From assembly GCA_035772785.1 (NCBI GenBank), contig JAOCPU010000005.1, forward strand, positions 62,001 through 126,000: 64,000 nucleotides of DNA, given 5' to 3'. Position numbers and translations under genes: made by a program. The DNA comes from Phlebiopsis flavidoalba. Lineage: Eukaryota; Basidiomycota; Agaricomycetes; Polyporales; Phanerochaetaceae. Below the pieces are notes generated by a model. The model ran no database searches and was not told the DNA's origin. It worked only from the letters and a program-made list of their open reading frames with translations. Shown in pieces: positions 12,664-34,546 of this stretch; the stretch's first letter is position 1, and every line of letters starts with the position of its first letter.

Positions 12664-14700
12664 ATGCGCTTCTTTCCCACAACATCTCTCGTATTTCTCG
12701 CCGTCACTACCCAAGTGTTCTCCGCCCCGGTCTCTTTGACCCCTGGCCATGTCTACCACGCCCGCGGATCTACCGTGCATGTTCCCTCAAAATCCGGATC
12801 CTCGACATTGGGGAAAATAGCGACAGGTGCTACCGTGGCATCTGGCGTGCTTCCGTTCCTCGAAGGCGCATTCCACCACTTCTTCGGCGGAGGAAACTCT
12901 ACTCGTCGTGATTTCGATGCCTTTCAGGAGTTATTACTGCGATCCGACGACGACGACGACAGTGAAGCTATTTCCCTCAAAAGCTCTCGGAAAGGGCTTG
13001 TCATTCGGTATACCTATAATCAGCGCGGCATTGCCAGTCTGTTTGGAGGGTGAGTATTGCTAATATACTTTCCTCTCACGATACGCTCATTGAGCTACAG
13101 ATCATCGAGTAACTCTACACGTCGTGAACTGCTAGAGTTCTACACTCGAGACGCCTCCGCCAACCAGAGCGACGCCATTTCGCTATCGAGTATCCTCGGC
13201 GTCGGCGAGGACATCATTAACGAGATTGAAGGTCTCTTCAGCGGGTACGGTTTCACCTCGCTCTCTTATTTTCATCGAATGCTAACTGTGCACCAGATCA
13301 ACGAGCAGTAACAGCACTGCCCAGAGGCGCGAGCTATACGAGCTGATCGCCCGATCCAATATTACTGACGACAGTGGCGCACATCAATCTGGGAAGCATT
13401 TTCAAGATAGGCTCAGGCTTACTTAGTGGTTTTGAGAGCTTGTTCGGAGGGTAAGCACACTATGTGAACTTCTGTACACAAAATTGACACCACATCTCCA
13501 GATCGTCTTCCAACAACCAGCAGCGCGATGTTCAACATGGGAGAATCGGCCTTGTCAGATTGCCTCCCAAGCTTGCAGTCGCGCGTGATTCAGCAACCTC
13601 TTCAAACTCAACTGCAAGTGAAGCCATCAGCGTCGGGGACATCATCGGCGACATCGGCAGCGCACTGAGCCTCTTCCTCAAGCGCGACTCCCTGGCACAG
13701 CCCGCGACGGGCAACTCGACGGACAGCGAGTGCGATCAACATTGGGAAACATCATCGGGGATATTGGCAGTGTCTTGGGCCTCTTCATCAAGCGCGACTC
13801 TGCCGCCCATTCGTCGTCGCTCGATGGCGCACGCCTTTCCCCAGATTTCACTGTTACTTTGAACAAGCTCATCGCAAGGCAAGCTCCTCACGACCCGTGA
13901 CTTCCACCAAGCACTAATACCGCAAACATTATGGGCTTCCGATGAGCAAAAGCGTGAGCTCCTCGAGCTGCTGGCCCGTGATGACGACGACAGCGAGGCG
14001 GCCGCGCTCCTCAACGAACATCTTCAACATCGGCAAGATCACGGCAGACGGCTTCAGCATCATAAGCCACTTGCTCCAAGGGTATGTGTCTGCGTCTTCA
14101 TTCTTCGAATGTCGTTTCTCTCAATGACTTCGGACCCACAGATTCCCGGCAACAGCACCCGCCGCGATTTCATTGAGATGGTCGCAGGGTGACGTTAGCG
14201 CGGACGACGAGAGCGGAGCGTTGAAGCTCAAGCTCGGGGATATCGCGAACATCGGCAGCATTGCCTCCCGACGCCGCCAGCGTGTTCACTAGCTTCTTCG
14301 GCGGGTAGGTCGTCCTGTCGCTGCTCCCAAGTGACCAACTGACGTCGGTACCATAGACATGGCAACAGCACGCGCCGCGACGATTTCGAGGAGCTCTTCG
14401 CCAGAGATGTCGACGCACGATGAGCGATGACGAGAGGGGGCATTGAAGCTGAAGCTCGGTGACCTCGCGAACATTTGGTAGCATCGCCTCGAGCGCTGTC
14501 AATGTTTTTGAAGGACTGTTCAGCTCGTAAGTGCCTCTTGGTGCTGTTGCTATTCTGCATCTGATTTTCCTGGCGTTTATAGACACGGGAACAGCACCCG
14601 CCGCGCTGAATTGCTTGAGATGTTCGGTTCGGGAAATTTGATAAGTCGTGCACGACGATCGAAACGATATCATGAAGTAGTAATGATCTTTTCTGAGTGA
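12664..14700 (+). CDS. Secreted modular protein of repeated exons
   Basis: The start MRFFPTTSLVFLAVTTQVFS is a clear signal peptide. About eight exons follow: 12664-13049, 13101-13244, 13297-13450, 13502-about 13900, about 13950-14081, 14142-14304, 14357-14526 and 14583 onward. Most exons end in a glycine-rich LFGG/LFSG-type codon pair split in phase 2. Most begin with a linker containing NSTRR or a related dibasic sequence, and then carry an acidic stretch, SEAI/GALKL and an INIGxI amphipathic segment. Examples are NSTRRELLEFYTRDASANQ, NSTRRDDFEELFARD and the segment NIGSIASSAVNVFEGLF. The exons are interchangeable in phase, so the protein grew by tandem exon duplication. RR/KR pairs between modules could be kexin cleavage sites and NST is an N-glycosylation sequon. 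Several exons carry one extra base (for example near 13385 and 13730). I know no named family for it. The stop is either about 14641 (after correction) or 14700 (raw frame). Confidence 0.7.
13040..14641 (+). repeat. Tandem exon-intron repeat units
   Basis: Seven successive units each hold an intron of about 50 nt. Each intron is followed by an exon whose 5' end reads A-TCx/CAT-…-AAC-AGC-ACx-CGC-CGC and whose 3' end reads CTGTTC/TTCTTC-GGCGG. Units at 14142, 14357 and 14583 are the most alike (GGCAACAGCACCCGCCGC core). The pattern indicates duplication of whole exon-intron units. Confidence 0.65.
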
Positions 14701-21949: not shown

Positions 21950-24900
21950 ATGCCCGGAGTTTCGAGAGCGCAGAGGGCAGAGGCAAAGTACAATGTGTCT
22001 TTGACTGTGAGTACCGCCTGTTCCTTCTCTTTCCTCATCGACATTTCCTCATCGACACTGACGGACACTGATAGACCCAAACCTCGGCTTGCACTCTGCC
22101 GCCCAGTCCGGAAACTTGGGGCTCGTCAAGTATGCGATAGATCACGGGCAGCCCGTCAACTCGGTACTGGATGGTGTCCTCCCCATTCATGCAGCATCGT
22201 TCGGTGGAAGCGACATCGTCGTGAAGAAGCTTGTAGAGTATGGCGCCAGATGTCAATGCTACCCGGTGCGTCCCCGCCACACAGCGTCTCATTACGAACC
22301 CAACTGATCAATGTCATTAGCCTACCTCGTCGGTACTCGACCGACAAACATCGGGGGAGTGCACCCCCATTTAGTCATCACTGGCGCATCTGGCTCAACC
22401 TCGTTGCATTTTGCCGCCATGCATGGTCACGCGCCAGTCATACTCACTCTCCTCATGCACGGTGCGCACCCTGACCGGATGGACAAACATGGCGATGACT
22501 CCGGAGATGATTGCGCGCCAGAACAATTACAACGATTGCGCGGATGTCTTGCAGCAGTGGGCCCACAACAAGGACCGTGATCTCAGGGAGCGGGAAACTC
22601 TTCCTTCCCAATCGGTAGACGACCAGTCTACTAAGGACGAAAGGAGCCACGCTTACTGGCGGATCAACTGGGAATGCTTCATATGCGCTACCAGAAAGCG
22701 GATACGCATGAAGCGGTCTATCGATAACGCTATTCATATTCTGCGCCATTCGTCGTCGAGCACCTCCGCTGTAGCTACGCCGCTGCACTCCGCTGGCTCA
22801 ATTATCGCCTCCAACTCGGTACAACCGCCATCGCCCACAGACAGGGTGCTCGGCAAGTACACGTTTTACCCGCCCGCCGATAGTGCCCTCGAGGACCTCC
22901 CCCCTCGACGCCCTTCCCTTCCCGATGTCTTTGAAGTGCCACGTAGCGCTTCGACAGCCCATCGGAGTCGGAGACCGTCAAACCTATCCGGCACCAGCTC
23001 CCGCCGGCCGCGGTCCGCTGGCTCTGATGCCGACCCCGCTGTCCCACCAAGAGTCAAGAGCAAGATCTCGTTGCTCAACATCTTCAAGAGGAATAACGAG
23101 GGCACAACCGATAGTCCCTCGCCGTCGAGCTCTGCGGTCACTTCAGTCTCCGTTTCACCAGCTCCTGCATCCGCCCTGGCGATGTCAACTATGACGAGCC
23201 GCTCCAGTGAGACGCTCGCCACTGCCGACTCCTCCCTGCCCATATCCGCGGGGAATCAGCTTCATCAACGATTGCTTGGTGACGCAGTCTCCTCGCCGTT
23301 GTCCTCGGCCGAGCTACGGCGCACCATCCTCCCCGAGACAGCCTGCGCGGCACGCACACCCTCCTATCGAACGACCCCTTTGCGAAGGCGAACCCCTCAA
23401 CGACACGCCCAGGAATCTTGCGTGCCACACACACGGCCGTTCATCATCGGGGAACTCGGTCCACGGGGACACGCCCCGCTCTGCATCCGGGGCTGCTTCG
23501 GCGAGAGCGCTTCGCTTCGACCCCGCCTCGCCGGGCGTCGTGGCGGGCACGCGGCGGCCAGATTCGCGCGTTCGGCAATCGCGCACCGAGAGAGATCGCA
23601 GCCCCGCGCGCTCGCTCGCTCGTCCATGGCCGCGGCAGCCTCAACTCGCTCCGCTCGCCGAGTCCGGGGCTCGCCGTGGGGGCATGCGCATGGAGAGCGA
23701 GCCCGAGGCGCTCCTGGCACGGCGGTCGCCGGGCCGGGGCACGGCCCTGCACGAGGAGGACGAGGAGGCCCTGTACGGCGCGCCGCGCGTGCGGGAGCTG
23801 CAGATGCGCCTGTCGGAACTCGACGCGAAGGCGCGGCGGCTGTCGGTGGACTCGCGCGCGTCGGACCTCGACTCCGCAGGACACGATCAGCCACCGGTTC
23901 GAGTGCCCGTTCAGCATCAACCGGCCGCCGCTCGACGAGGACGAGGACAGCGCGGGGCGCGCTGCCCGTGCCCGGCCCCGGCCCCCGCGCGAGCCTCGAC
24001 AGCCGCCTCCGCGGCAACTCGATGAGCAGCATGGTCACGGACAGCAGCGGCGGCCCGCCGAGCTCGTGTGTGCCCACGCCCGCGCTGCAGCACCCGAACC
24101 TGCCCAGCCCGTTTTGTCCTCTCGCCGTCGATGGGCCAGGCGGGCGGACCTGCCCTCGCCCGGCGAGAGCCCCGAGAAGGAGCTCGCGCAGGCGTCCCCG
24201 ACGAGGCGCGCGCGGGGCCCGCTCGACATCGATATCCGCCAGATCTCGTCGCACGCGCAGGCGGAGGCGCTCGTGCAGCGCGCGCAGCGGCGGATCCTGG
24301 CGATGGCCGACGACTCGGAGGAGGAGGGCGTGAAGACGTTTGGGCTCAATCTCGGCGAGGGCCACACGCCGCTCAGCGCGAAGCTCGCGGCGTACGGCGA
24401 GAGCCTGGCGATCGAGCGCCGGTTCAAGGAGGAGGAGCAGCGCAAGCGGTCGAGCCTCCGTCATCGACTCGCCCTCGGACCAGCACGCTCGTTTCCCACG
24501 GCGGCTCCGTGCAGCGGAAGCTACAGCCTCCAGGAGGGCGCGCACGGGGTGGCCGGTCGCGGAGGCGCGGCGGCCGCACACGAGGCGACGGAGACCGTGA
24601 GTGGCTCTACAGCTTGTCTTGTGCGCCCCGGCGATGCTGAGAGGCCGTGTGCCGTTGCAGAACCCGCGGACCAGTTCCTCGCGCCCGCCCCGAACGTCGT
24701 CGGAACCTGTCGATCTCCGACCCCGGCCACCGCCCCAGCCGGCTCGCCTGCACCGCGCGCCCGCGAGCAGCAGCACCGCGAGAGCACGCCCGGCGCGCAC
24801 TACAAGACGCGCTCCGAGACCGCGCCGCTGCCCGCGTTCGCGTTTGCGCCGCGCGCGCGCACGCCGGACCCCGACGCGTCGCACTATGCGCCGCCGCTCG

Positions 24901-25158
24901 GCGCGCCGCTGACGCGCTTCCCGACGTGCCCGCCCGAGGACACGCTCATCCCGCGCAGCGACCTGCTCTCGCGGCAGGAGCGCCAGGCCGCGCGCCGCGC
25001 AGAAGCTCGTGAAGATGGGCTTCTCGCGCGGCGGCGCGCCTGCGGAGCCGTGGAAGGAGAGCCCGCCGTACGCCGCGCGCGCGCAGGGGCAGCAGCAGCG
25101 CCACCACCGCTTTGGCGGGATCAAGACGCTCGTGCAGTCGCTGACTGGCCGCGTGTGA
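21950..25158 (+). CDS. Large ankyrin-repeat protein with disordered tail
   Basis: Exon 1 opens MPGVSRAQRAEAKYNVSLT and is followed by donor GTGAGT. The next exons hold ankyrin repeats: LGLHSAAQSGNLGLVKYAID, LPIHAASFGGSDIVVKKLVE, then STSLHFAAMHGHAPVILTLL. After these comes TPEMIARQNNYNDCADVL and a charged linker. The remaining 600 or so residues are Ser/Pro/Arg-rich and look disordered. Conserved islands stand out: KSKISLLNIFKRNNEG, the acidic/helical segment IDIRQISSHAQAEALVQRA, and a C-terminus with RFGGIKTLVQSLTGRV, stop 25156-25158. Frames switch at about 22250, 23320 and several places to 24900, in very GC-rich sequence. Ankyrin repeats bind proteins; a scaffold or signalling role is an inference. 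The layout (N-terminal repeats, basidiomycete-type tail) fits an uncharacterised conserved protein. Confidence 0.8.
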
Positions 25159-26421
25159 GCGTTCGTCTATGTTTTTTTTTCTTGTTCTCTTGGAGTCCTA
25201 CATCTCTGCATCCGTCCCCGCCATGCGCGGACGAACCCACCCCACCCCAGCACCGTCTCCTGTGTACCTGCTGTCTGTCGTTCTCTTGTTCCGCTGTTGT
25301 AGCCCCCCGTCTGTGCTCCCTCGTCGTTTCTCGTCCCGCTGGTACGCCCAGCTTTCCCGGAAGAGCCCCGTTTTCTCATCTTTCCTTCACCCATCCTGGA
25401 TCATCCCACCCCCATCCCAGCTTCTTCGTGTTGTGATCTGCCTGTTCACTGTGTGATCTTTTTATCTTTATTTTATCGGATCCCCTCCCTCTCGCAAGTC
25501 GTGTTTTACTTATTTGCTCCGTGCGCCTGCCGCGCCAGGTTTTCCCACTTTCCTTGTGTCATTCGCCCCTCCATCCACCCCATCTGTGCATCTCTGTGTC
25601 CGCTGCATTGTCCACCCCCACCCCAAGTCTGTACTTTCTACATGTATTTTGTCCGTCTGTTTTTGTCTGTACAAGAGAATGCATGGATCAGTTGCCCTTG
25701 TTCGTCTGCGCTCTGCGTCTTGCTCTACGTGAGCGCATCGGTGGGAAGCGCCGGCGCGTAGCTTGGAAGTTCATCGTCATCTTGGAAGTGTACCGTCATG
25801 ATCATGATGTCCTGATCCTGTCGAATGGCCGGTACGCTCGTATCTTTGCGATGGCGTATGTCTAGGATCGCTTTCTTGCGGACATTACCGCTCGAATGTA
25901 CGATTGTCTGCAGAGGTATGACAAAATTGCCTTTCTGAGAGCATCGGACGCGATTTCTGATATGTTTGTCGAGATCATAGTATACTCCATGTATGCGTGT
26001 TTTTCGATGTCCCTGTGATGCAAATGCATCATCATGGGTCAAGAAAGCAGTACGATCCGCAGAGGATCGACAAAGACATGTTTATTCCGTGACTTGCCAA
26101 CGACGGTCCGCGACTGAGCGAGGGGACCGAGGGACCGCGCACGCGACACAGGACGATGATCATCTGGCCTCTAGATGATGCAGTCCCCGTCTGCATGCTC
26201 GAAGCTGCAGCGACTCAGTGACTCTCGACGCTCCACCCCGGGATATCCCCGCCGCACAGAGTTGCGAAGGCCCAGGAAGCAGCAGCGAGCATGTGAGCGG
26301 CCTTCGCGCACCGTCCACGGGTGTCGGGCGCACGACGAGGATGTGCGATCCGCCGCAACCTCGAGCCAGTTCACCACACATATAAGCGGTCTCTCGGACC
26401 CAGGAGAAGCGACACCTACAA
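25159..26421. other. Intergenic region, pyrimidine-rich first half
   Basis: 25160-25720 is strongly C/T-rich on plus and follows directly on the ankyrin stop, so it is partly 3' UTR. 25720-26370 has no supported gene. The last part holds the GH79 promoter, with TATAAG at 26381, about 40 nt before the ATG. Confidence 0.4.
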
Positions 26422-28295
26422 ATGTCGCGCACCGCACTCCTCTGCAGCCTCCTCGCTGCGTCCCCGCGCACGCGCTCACCGTCCCGTCGTCCGCGCCCTC
26501 GTCCGCGGCGCCGCTCGACCCCGCGCTGCTTTCCTGAGCGTGTCGCTCGAGTTCTTCGCCTTCCCGCCGGGGGTACGCCGCGCTCCCCGCGACCGCGAAC
26601 TGTCTCGGGAACCTTGCGAACCTGCGCGGCGCCCAGCCCGCGATTCGTATCGGCGGGACCACGCAGTGCGTTTTTCTCCTGTTCTAAGGGGAGGGTCGGC
26701 TGATGGTGTGCTAGGGACCGCGCGACGTTCGAGCCTGGGCTGAATGTCGCGGTGAACTACTCGGTCGCGTCGCCTGCGGACGCGCCGGATAGTCTTACGT
26801 ACGGCCCGCCGTTCGTCCAGCTCGCGGCGCAGCTCAAGGGCCCGGTCACGCTTGGGCTGAACCGCCAGCTTGATAATCAGAGTGCGAGCCTCGCCGCGGC
26901 GGTACTCGCCAAGAAGACGGTGCTCCGAACCTGTTTGCGCTGGAGTTGAGGGGGAACGAGCCCGAGTGTGAGTTGGGTTTGGTGGTTTGGTGGTTCTGGG
27001 CTTGGTTCAAACGGTGGCGTAGTCTATGCGAGCGATTCGCCGATCATTGTCGACGGTGGTAAAGGGTGGAACGAGGCTGTGGACGCGGCGAGTGAAAAGT
27101 CGTGGTTTGAGACGTTCTCCAAGTCGGTGCGTGGCGGGGGGACTCGGCCGGTCAATCGATGCTCACGCCGAAGCTGATAGGTGGGGAACATCTTCCAAGG
27201 GGCGGTCAGGCTGTCGTGGTCTGCGGGCGACCTGCTAACCAGTATAGGGTCTGACGGCGTCGCGCTTCTAAAGTCGCTCTCTAGAGCCACTCGTACCCAC
27301 AGTCTGCATGTGGTGGCGCATCGACAAACCTAACTGCCCTCATGAGTCACTCGTATGTGCTGCTTCCATCCAGAGGTCACCTAAGCTCATTTGGGATTTT
27401 TAGGGGCATTGTGTCGTACATGAAAAACAATTTCAATCCGAGGCTAGCCTCGCGCATGCCGAACGGAATCAAGTACTTCCTCGGCGAGACGAATTCTGGT
27501 CAGTTTGAGCACTGTATGGCCAGTGTCTAGCTGGCTGACTGTCTCTCGTAGCAACGTGCGGCGGCGGTGGGATCAGTCCGGTGAGCAGGTATTCCAAGGG
27601 TCAAGCCTCTGACCTGCTGACCACGCGCGGTCTTTTGTACAGACGTTCGGTGCTGCCTTATGGATCGTCGATTATGTTTTACAGTGGGTGCACTCATCGG
27701 TGCTGATCCGGCCTATATTTCCACCAAGGACCATTTCAAACTGCGTATGTGTGCCGGCCGGGGGCGAGCACGGGTGTTACTCAGCACCTGCTGACCATTG
27801 CGCCCGCACAGGCATACTGCTTCTGGGCAGCCAATCTTCCATTTTCACAACCCTACTATGGAGCCGCGTTTGTGTCCGAGTTCCTGGGGGCAGGATGGTG
27901 CCTAAAGGTTGCCATGCTGGACGACGGCACGGAGCGCGGTCGGGTGCGTACGCCGTGTTCAACAGCGCGGGCACGCCGGTAAGGCTGCTCGCCATCAACA
28001 GCAACAACTATGGGGGCTCGGGCACGCGCGAGGCGTCGACCGTGTCATTTAGCGGGCTCAAGACGACGGTACCGGGAGCATCAAGGCAAAAGAGGATGAC
28101 TGCGCCCAGCGCCACGTCTCGTTGTGGACCAAGGGGTCACCGCGCGGTGACGATCGTTGTGGAGCTCTTCTTTCTCCTCGGACTGCTCGCGGACGGGCAC
28201 ACAGACGACGGAGAGCGTAGCGGTCAGCGGGGGTGCAGCATCGGTCTCTGTGAAGGCCATCTCCGACGGCGTTGAAGAATGTCGTCTTTTTGTGA
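26422..28295 (+). CDS. GH79 family glycoside hydrolase (beta-glucuronidase-like), secreted
   Basis: Secreted retaining hydrolase related to fungal beta-glucuronidases, which release (4-O-methyl-)glucuronic acid from plant polysaccharides and proteoglycans. Exon 1 (26422-26665) has signal peptide MSRTALLCSLLAA, then LSVSLEFFAFP and PAIRIGGTTQ. Exon 2 (26715-26967) has FEPGLNVAVNYSVASP and ends in LELRGNEPE, the acid/base glutamate motif. Later exons give SDSPIIVDGGKGWNEAVD, IVSYMKNNFNPRLASRMP, KYFLGETNS (nucleophile glutamate), TFGAALWIVDYVL, TISNCAYCFW, VAMLDDGTE, AYAVFNSAGTPVRLLAINSN and LKTTVPGA. The C-terminal beta-domain ends SVSVKA-SPTALKNVVFL, stop 28293-28295. About eight short introns. 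Single-base shifts occur after the signal peptide (about 26462), near 26925 and in the last 100 bases. Both catalytic residues are present, so it is probably active. Confidence 0.88.
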
Positions 28296-33285: not shown

Positions 33286-34546
33286 GAGTGATTATGCGGA
33301 CGATATCGACACGATGCTCGTCTTCGTGAGTTCTTGAACGCCCGACGTACTACGGCAATTTCTCATCTATGTTTCTGTAGGCGGCGCTTTTTCTCAGCCG
33401 TCGTCGTCACAACGTTTGCTGCACAGACATACCAGTCTTTTCAACCAGACAACACCTCTACCACAAATCAGCTCATCGCATACCAGATCTCACTTCAGAA
33501 AGCTCCAGCGAACATCCCTCCAGGAATTAACTCCACCATCGCAGACCTTGCTCTCTCTCCGCAGCCATCGCAGGCCGCTACGTCCCACTCCACGCGCTGG
33601 ATCAATGCGCTCTTTTTCCTCAGTCTCGTATTCAGCCTCGCCGCAGCGCTGCTGACTGGGTATTATGTCGAAGCAATGGATCCGCGAATATCTCAAATGG
33701 AACCAGGCATTGGGAGTACGAAGTCGCGAGAACGTCATCATCCGCCAAATCCGGTTCGAGGCCTGGGAACAGTGGCGCGTCGAAGGCATTTTCTGGTCCA
33801 TTCCATCTTGCTCGAGCTCGCCATGGTGCTGTTCCCTCGCAGGAGTCTCCGTCCTCCTATGGACACTTGACGATATTACCGCAAAGTTGATCACCATCAT
33901 CGTGGCCGCATTCCTCGGCTTGTTTGCGTTGATCACCATCCTGCCGGTCCTTATCAAGCGGTGCCCTTACAAATCGCCTACGTCCTGGGTCCTTTTGCGG
34001 CTATATACGCTTGTCAGGGACGGGTTCATATTTGCCAGCTCTTTTTCGGGTTGGTCAGAGGCGGTTACGGGAAGATCTGCCGGCGCTACGCTCCTGGCGG
34101 GACTGGGACCTTGACAGCTGTAGAGCCGCAGGATGGATGGCAGTCATGGCCATGGTACTCGACTACCATAAGCCGCGCGATATTATGCTATGTGGGGTGA
34201 GATTGAGCTTATCAGTGAACTCAGTCATCCAATCTCAAGCTTAAGGGGAGAGCGAGATTGGACAAAAGAGCGTGTCTTGGACCCATTTGCAGTATGTTTT
34301 CAGAGACATCCGCGCGAGATGGTCGTCCTTGTCCGAGCGCTATCCTGGGTGGGGCAAGCGTCACATAAGCAACGAGTCCGGGAGTACATCTCCCAAGCCA
34401 CGTCGTCCATTCATACCACCGGCTCTCAGGGTGAAGACACAGTCCGAGCACGAACCATGATGCAGACCGGATCATCGTCGAGGCCTTCCTCAGTGGTGAG
34501 ATTAGCACACCTCATTCGGTTCTATCTGCCTCCGGGGCTCTTTTGA
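33286..34546 (+). CDS. DUF6535 transmembrane protein
   Basis: Member of a large, functionally unknown family of Agaricomycete membrane proteins. The upstream exon ends DYADDIDTMLVF and donor GTGAGT; the next begins after TTTCTGTAG with AALFSAVVVTTFAAQTYQSF, the signature start of the domain. It continues with PDNTSTTNQLIAYQISLQ, WINALFFLSLVFSLAAALL, KQWIREYLKWNQALG, FEAWEQWRVEGIFW and a double hydrophobic block (LELAMVLFLAGVSVLLWTL; LITIIVAAFLGLFALITILP), about four membrane helices in all. An extra T in a T5 run at 33388-33394 breaks the first exon. After 34100 the protein continues as WDLDSCRAAGWMAVMAMVLD and RIIVEAFLSG, but C-terminal exons (possibly to about 36 kb) cannot be resolved. The true start is not certain. 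Confidence 0.7.

Follow-up and report, generated by a model that had tools for sequence, protein, structure and literature searches.

A tandem-module secreted protein of Phlebiopsis flavidoalba as a probable KEP-type peptide precursor with relatives among polypore fungi

Main finding

In a 64,000-nucleotide stretch of Phlebiopsis flavidoalba DNA (the window), a gene on the forward strand which, from a reading of the frames, starts at 12664 and stops at about 14700 encodes a signal peptide followed by a series of repeated modules. On balance, we judge it probable that this gene encodes a precursor of the KEP type (KEX2-processed repeat protein), predicted from its sequence to release helical peptides some 40 residues long, anionic and free of cysteine, that would act at surfaces or membranes. 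The family to which it belongs is apparently unnamed and its products have apparently not been studied; the member from Phlebiopsis gigantea could already stand in the tables of KEP surveys.

Gene structure

The modules of the 12664 protein repeat one plan, in which a linker leads to an RR or KR pair and then to a helix resembling ELLELLAR, an acidic stretch of the form D-x-S-G-A, an amphipathic helix and, finally, LFGG. The hydrophobic N-terminus, recognised as a signal peptide by eye, ends FSA-PVS, and most full-length relatives have one that looks similar on the same inspection. The original prediction of a secreted, repeated-module protein is borne out by P0001, a protein of P. gigantea which is 53% identical to the 12664 protein, and since the alignment between the two species covers 93% of the joined query (E 1e-118), the repeats are not a product of chance.

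Exons 2, 3, 5, 6 and 7 each carry one module and exon 4 carries two (Table 1), and within exon 4 a 52-nt duplication (13639-13690 and 13749-13800, 83% identical, spacing 110 nt) can be recognised. Six introns are clear, and these are 51-60 nt long, bordered by GT..AG throughout and all in phase 2, with junctions of GG/A in five and TC/A in one (the slash marking the intron); they cut the linker just 5' of the Ser/Asn/Gln-rich stretch that precedes the basic site. The step of the reading from exon 4 into exon 5 calls for one more intron near 13879-13934, where the borders are abnormal as read. The idea that the exons are of symmetric phase is consequently upheld by all six clear borders, but not by the exon lengths as read: among the four one-module exons with clear borders (exons 2, 3, 6 and 7, of 144, 154, 163 and 170 nt), only exon 2 is a multiple of three in length, the frame being broken within the other three. 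Similarly, the modules do recur, but the NSTRR that had been taken as part of their plan is found at five borders (12895, 13111, 14151, 14364 and 14590), the others reading TAQRR, QQR, LKR, IKR and QKR. Elsewhere in the window, in six frames, NSTRR occurs as single copies in unrelated surroundings (23817 and 43832 on the plus strand, 48558 on the minus strand).

Table 1. Features of the gene at 12664 (window coordinates)
Feature	Position	Strand	Basis or remark
Exon 1: signal peptide (~12664-12726), first amphipathic segment to FFGG, module 1 (GNSTRR...SLFGG)	12664..13049	+	aligns with about the first 130 residues of P0001
Intron 1, phase 2	13050..13100	+	splice borders
Exon 2: module 2 (SSSNSTRRELLEFYTRD...GLFSG), 144 nt, frame intact	13101..13244	+	splice borders, reading frames
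Intron 2, phase 2	13245..13296	+	splice borders
Exon 3: module 3 (TAQRRELYELIARS...LFGG), frame break	13297..13450	+	splice borders, tblastn with P0001
Intron 3, phase 2	13451..13501	+	splice borders
Exon 4: modules 4a and 4b, each with a KR end; frame break between; 3' end uncertain	13502..13878	+	repeat, tblastn with P0001
Probable intron 4, splice sites abnormal as read	13879..13934	+	flanking anchors only
Exon 5: module 5 (QKRELLELLARDDDDSEA...HLLQG), frame break; 5' end uncertain	13935..14081	+	tblastn with P0001
Intron 5, phase 2	14082..14141	+	splice borders
Exon 6: module 6 (GNSTRRDFIEMVA...FFGG), frame breaks	14142..14304	+	splice borders, tblastn with P0001
Intron 6, phase 2	14305..14356	+	splice borders
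Exon 7: module 7 (GNSTRRDDFEELFARD...GLFSS), frame breaks	14357..14526	+	splice borders, tblastn with P0001
Intron 7, phase 2	14527..14582	+	splice borders
Exon 8: GNSTRRAELLEMF... to stop, partial last module	14583..14700	+	no counterpart in P0001 as deposited

As to the rest of the window, Pfam places a Glycosyl hydrolase family 79 C-terminal domain at 27613-28272 (+), and the stretch 22000-26000 is GC-rich (63-65%) and holds long ORFs that overlap, the largest being 717 aa on the plus strand and 589 aa on the minus strand; the 717-aa ORF has no Pfam match at E 0.01.

Relatives in the polypores

Protein searches, at E 1e-3 first and then at 1e-5, each scoring only the roughly 8000 candidates that shared most words, returned 27 different relatives. 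The 12 with a species name span eight polypore-group genera and come from Phlebiopsis gigantea, Irpex rosettiformis (2), Phanerochaete sordida (3), Hermanssonia centrifuga, Trametopsis cervina, Steccherinum ochraceum, Cytidiella melzeri and Amylocystis lapponica (2); a taxonomy check confirmed three of these species as Polyporales, where the remainder presumably also belong. Ustilago proteins were absent from the species-named matches among the candidates scored. The labels of the 12 are 'hypothetical' or 'uncharacterized', with a single 'EF-hand domain-containing' (P0005). That the module belongs to no named family had been suggested beforehand and held: Pfam gives the 12664 protein a single match (E 0.07, short of its cut-off), and across 13 relatives finds no family common to more than three at E 0.001, the matches being spread over unrelated families. 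The literature matches listed for the DESGAL motif include no fungal protein.

The pattern by which modules were located fixes S and A in the core, so that conservation at these two residues is built in, and it finds six modules of the 12664 protein, modules 4b and 7 being missed because of frame breaks. All six have their best match in a module of P0001, in the same order, and none in a module of their own protein, while three of the seven P0001 modules match one another best. Modules of several other relatives are most similar to those of their own protein (13/14 in P0008, 10/11 in P0004 and 8/8 in P0020), which fits repeated duplication or homogenisation as judged from these sequences; P0006 (3/11) and P0014 (2/9) show little of this. 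Against P0001, exon 4 of the 12664 gene contributes one sub-module more, and the protein closes with an additional partial module, the latter difference perhaps reflecting only a gap in the P0001 gene model. The expectation that modules are gained and lost is thus supported both by the extra exon 4 sub-module and by the likeness of modules within single proteins of several other species. Twelve of the 27 relatives (P0002, P0004 to P0006, P0008 to P0012, P0014, P0019 and P0027) finish with a conserved short tail, R/K-S-L/I-N-D/E-L-D, which the 12664 gene as read does not have.

Putative cleavage sites

Across the family, a dibasic site stands at 100 of 149 borders between neighbouring modules, as compared with 28.1 expected when each segment is shuffled, a 3.6-fold excess. 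The 49 borders that lack one include 22 that read QQR before D or E, and two relatives are mostly without dibasic borders, P0002 having them at 3 of 13 and P0009 at 2 of 8. By the conservation of RR among modules of related species, on which the original prediction could be judged, the evidence goes partly against that prediction, as these two proteins and the QQR borders show. The 12664 protein has nine dibasic sites that are followed by D, E or A. Compared by eye, six of the seven dibasic sites in P0001 have a dibasic counterpart in the 12664 protein, the seventh, ILKR, corresponding to a single Arg, and where P0001 has a QQQQR border the 12664 protein reads NNQQR.

A second site appears to accompany the first, since two-Arg arrangements (pattern spacings 7-14) are present in 110 of 151 cores from 18 relatives; this count, like those of EF-type loops, of sequons and of helices per module, includes a small number of cores that are spurious or overlap others (such as P0004 position 2 and P0008 position 52). 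The two Arg are 8 apart in 77 of the 110 and 11 apart in 17, P2 of the linker site is R or K in 68, and the second site reads AR in 89. The residue that follows the second, single-Arg site is Gln in 34 of the 110 and Ala in 50, and, if that site is cut, a Gln thereby exposed at the N-terminus could be converted to pyroglutamate.

Glycosylatable linkers had also been proposed, and sequons do lie within eight residues upstream of dibasic sites in the 12664 protein (6/9) and in five relatives (P0001, 4/7; P0003, 4/12; P0007, 2/6; P0018, 1/4; P0005, 1/7), but 19 proteins were examined and the remaining 13 have none, so that this is not a feature of the family. The linkers of many relatives are Gln-rich.

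Predicted peptides

Among 156 cores from 19 proteins, 101 are flanked by an Arg on the upstream side and by a dibasic site on the downstream side, the other 55 being without one or both ends, and the peptides predicted from these 101 have a median length of 40 residues (quartiles 38-42) and a median charge of -3, with 100 of them negative. An earlier length count had set 35 residues where no dibasic site followed, and the recount restricted to cores with both ends gives the same median. Extended to all 28 proteins, this yields 116 of 195 cores, a median of 40.5 residues and a charge of -3, with 114 of 116 negative. Tyr, Trp, Met and Cys are nearly absent from the predicted peptides (Tyr 0.1%), and 17 of the 19 proteins have no Cys beyond the first 22 residues. 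With a predicted charge that is negative, they are unlike antimicrobial peptides of the classical cationic kind.

In 194 segments, each of 24 residues after the core, the hydrophobic moment at 100 degrees is 0.278 as against 0.156 in shuffles, the moment at the strand angles of 160-170 degrees is below shuffles, and small residues recur above the shuffled level at spacings 3 to 8, with a peak at 3, and below it at 2. Because z-values from shuffling ignore relatedness, the helix test was repeated on 28 proteins, each represented by a single module, in 20 draws, which gave helical z-values of 7.6 to 12.8; taken module by module, the helical moment beats shuffles at the 5% level in 86 of 157 modules only. 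By this periodicity, the C-terminal half of the module is a predicted amphipathic helix. The AlphaFold models of P0001 (mean pLDDT 37, 7 sequences) and P0013 (mean pLDDT 52, 13 sequences) consist mostly of short helices, and neither contains a confident globular fold; the low pLDDT may stem from thin alignments of repeats.

Proposed processing and function

The anatomy of the protein and the enrichment of dibasic sites are the evidence for the kexin-processed precursor that was originally envisaged, and from these features of sequence we consider processing by kexin quite likely. In the scheme that we propose, in which expression, cleavage, product ends and activity are all predicted, the signal peptide would be removed first, Kex2-like proteases in the Golgi would cut the linkers after RR or KR, and a Kex1-like carboxypeptidase would then trim the basic residues. 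Each module would in this way give a peptide of about 40-50 residues, in which a short ELLELLAR helix is followed by the acidic stretch, by an amphipathic helix with many small residues and by a tail of polar character; the second conserved single Arg, usually eight residues past the first, might also be cut, which would leave an anionic product some 40 residues long. The freed peptides would be expected to work at surfaces or membranes, either in a hyphal coat, as repellents do, or by acting on other cells. Given processing, the chances of such a surface- or membrane-active role seem to us about even, and the peptides might also play a part in contacts with other organisms.

A bolder and decidedly tentative proposal is that of a polypore cassette family, in which most exons would represent one cleavable unit with phase-2 borders, each unit being cut twice (at the dibasic site and then at the single Arg eight residues on) to yield anionic amphipathic helical peptides for hyphal surfaces or for use against competing microbes, making the family an independent helical counterpart of the Ustilago repellents.

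Alternative readings

The chief competitor of a processed precursor is a repetitive surface or wall protein that is never cut, whose modules remain joined and in which RR and QQR are merely the helix starts of a repeat rod. In its favour, RR lies at or near the start of the one moderately confident helix in the P0013 model (pLDDT blocks 71-75), and QQR often takes the place of RR in P0002 and P0008, as does KQR or the like in P0009. We nevertheless regard it as rather doubtful, given the excess of dibasic sites over shuffled expectation, the LKR and IKR ends in the 12664 protein and P0001 that have no ELLELLAR following them, and the AlphaFold results for P0001 and P0013. A different kind of objection is that the gene might be a decaying pseudogene of its family, as could be read from frames that jump inside six exons (1, 3, 4, 5, 6 and 7, with two breaks in exon 1, both in the second half of module 1) and from the one abnormal splice junction. 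This we think unlikely: tblastn of P0001 against the region finds aligned stretches on either side of the breaks, and sequence error is likelier than decay because a DUF6535 gene in the window (33292-34111, +) is split too, Pfam matching it in two ORFs (33292-33867 and 33656-34111) that overlap but lie in different frames, an argument for error across the window that is based on one other gene. The split DUF6535 gene is in itself a sign of indel errors in the window.

A secreted calcium-binding protein with tandem EF-hand-like loops, to which the label of P0005 points, is suggested also by P0003, which passes the Pfam cut-offs of EF-hand_1, 5, 6 and 7, by P0002 and P0006, which pass that of CAPN13-like_C_EFh, by D at loop position 3 in 83%, and by a weak match to caltractin (E 0.093), the sole match in a PDB search. 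However, S or T occupies loop position 12 in 68% and D does so in 7%, canonical loops number 4 in 150, and among 13 members (P0002 not included) EF-hand_7 matches two and the other EF-hand models one each at E 0.001, with no EF-hand match in the 12664 protein. Some members, moreover, match unrelated families strongly (DinB_2, 2.9e-18; Spidroin_N, 1.2e-9), which suggests summing over repeats. With so few canonical loops and such inconsistent Pfam matches, we rejected the EF-hand reading as highly improbable and take the similarity to be that of a look-alike. We also set aside a dikaritin/ustiloxin-type RiPP, in view of the scarcity of Tyr, the residue that is cyclised in ustiloxin-type cores, and of any sign of DUF3328, which is marked by a pair of HxxHC motifs: six-frame translation of the window contains three isolated HxxHC and no pair, and no DUF3328 was found in the 40 of 150 window ORFs of at least 110 aa that were scanned with Pfam, where frame breaks could hide one.

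Comparison with known fungal systems

The 12664 protein resembles KEPs (PMC6339444, PMC7329392, PMC9769878) in having a signal peptide and repeated cores parted by RR or KR, and it differs from those portrayed there in that the cores of its family are about 40 residues long and imperfect, and have a single Arg conserved as a second site; roughly one border in three is without a dibasic site. Mass spectrometry has detected peptides from KEPs in Agaricomycetes, and when Coprinopsis KEPs were placed in Pichia some cuts seemed to follow a single Arg; knockouts of six Coprinopsis KEPs are described in the same source as having no apparent phenotype in the growth conditions used, and KEP-derived peptides as widespread among fungi, with functions largely unknown (PMC9769878). 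Dikaritin/ustiloxin-type precursors share the Kex2-separated repeats (PMC7329392, PMC9769878), whereas the predicted peptides of the 12664 family are almost without Tyr.

The plan of Ustilago maydis Rep1 is very similar: amphipathic imperfect repeats of 34-55 residues between Kex2 sites give rise to peptides of 35-53 residues, which coat hyphae and form amyloid-like fibrils (PMC4617103). Our predicted median of 40 residues falls within 35-53 and the segments are amphipathic, release itself being predicted; in contrast to the amyloid-like fibrils of Rep1, the 12664 family has helical periodicity, with strand periodicity below shuffles. The likeness to Rep1 is one of plan. Hum3 of the same species has a hydrophobin domain (PMC4617103), whereas Pfam finds none in the 12664 protein. 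Candida Ece1p, the precursor of candidalysin (PMC12153327), likewise contains several KR-separated peptides, of which the active one is amphipathic and helical, but there the toxin is one of eight peptides, while the modules of the 12664 family are alike and their predicted peptides anionic; this likeness too is one of plan, and we claim no toxicity.

What emerges is a polypore family whose plan is very like that of a known surface-active system, in which the exon borders of the 12664 gene would allow peptide units to be added or lost in frame, and which supplies defined peptides to look for in the secretomes of Phlebiopsis gigantea and Phanerochaete sordida. By analogy with the systems described in these sources, the plan of the 12664 protein is that of a KEP, most like Rep1 and, in its helical character, like Ece1p.
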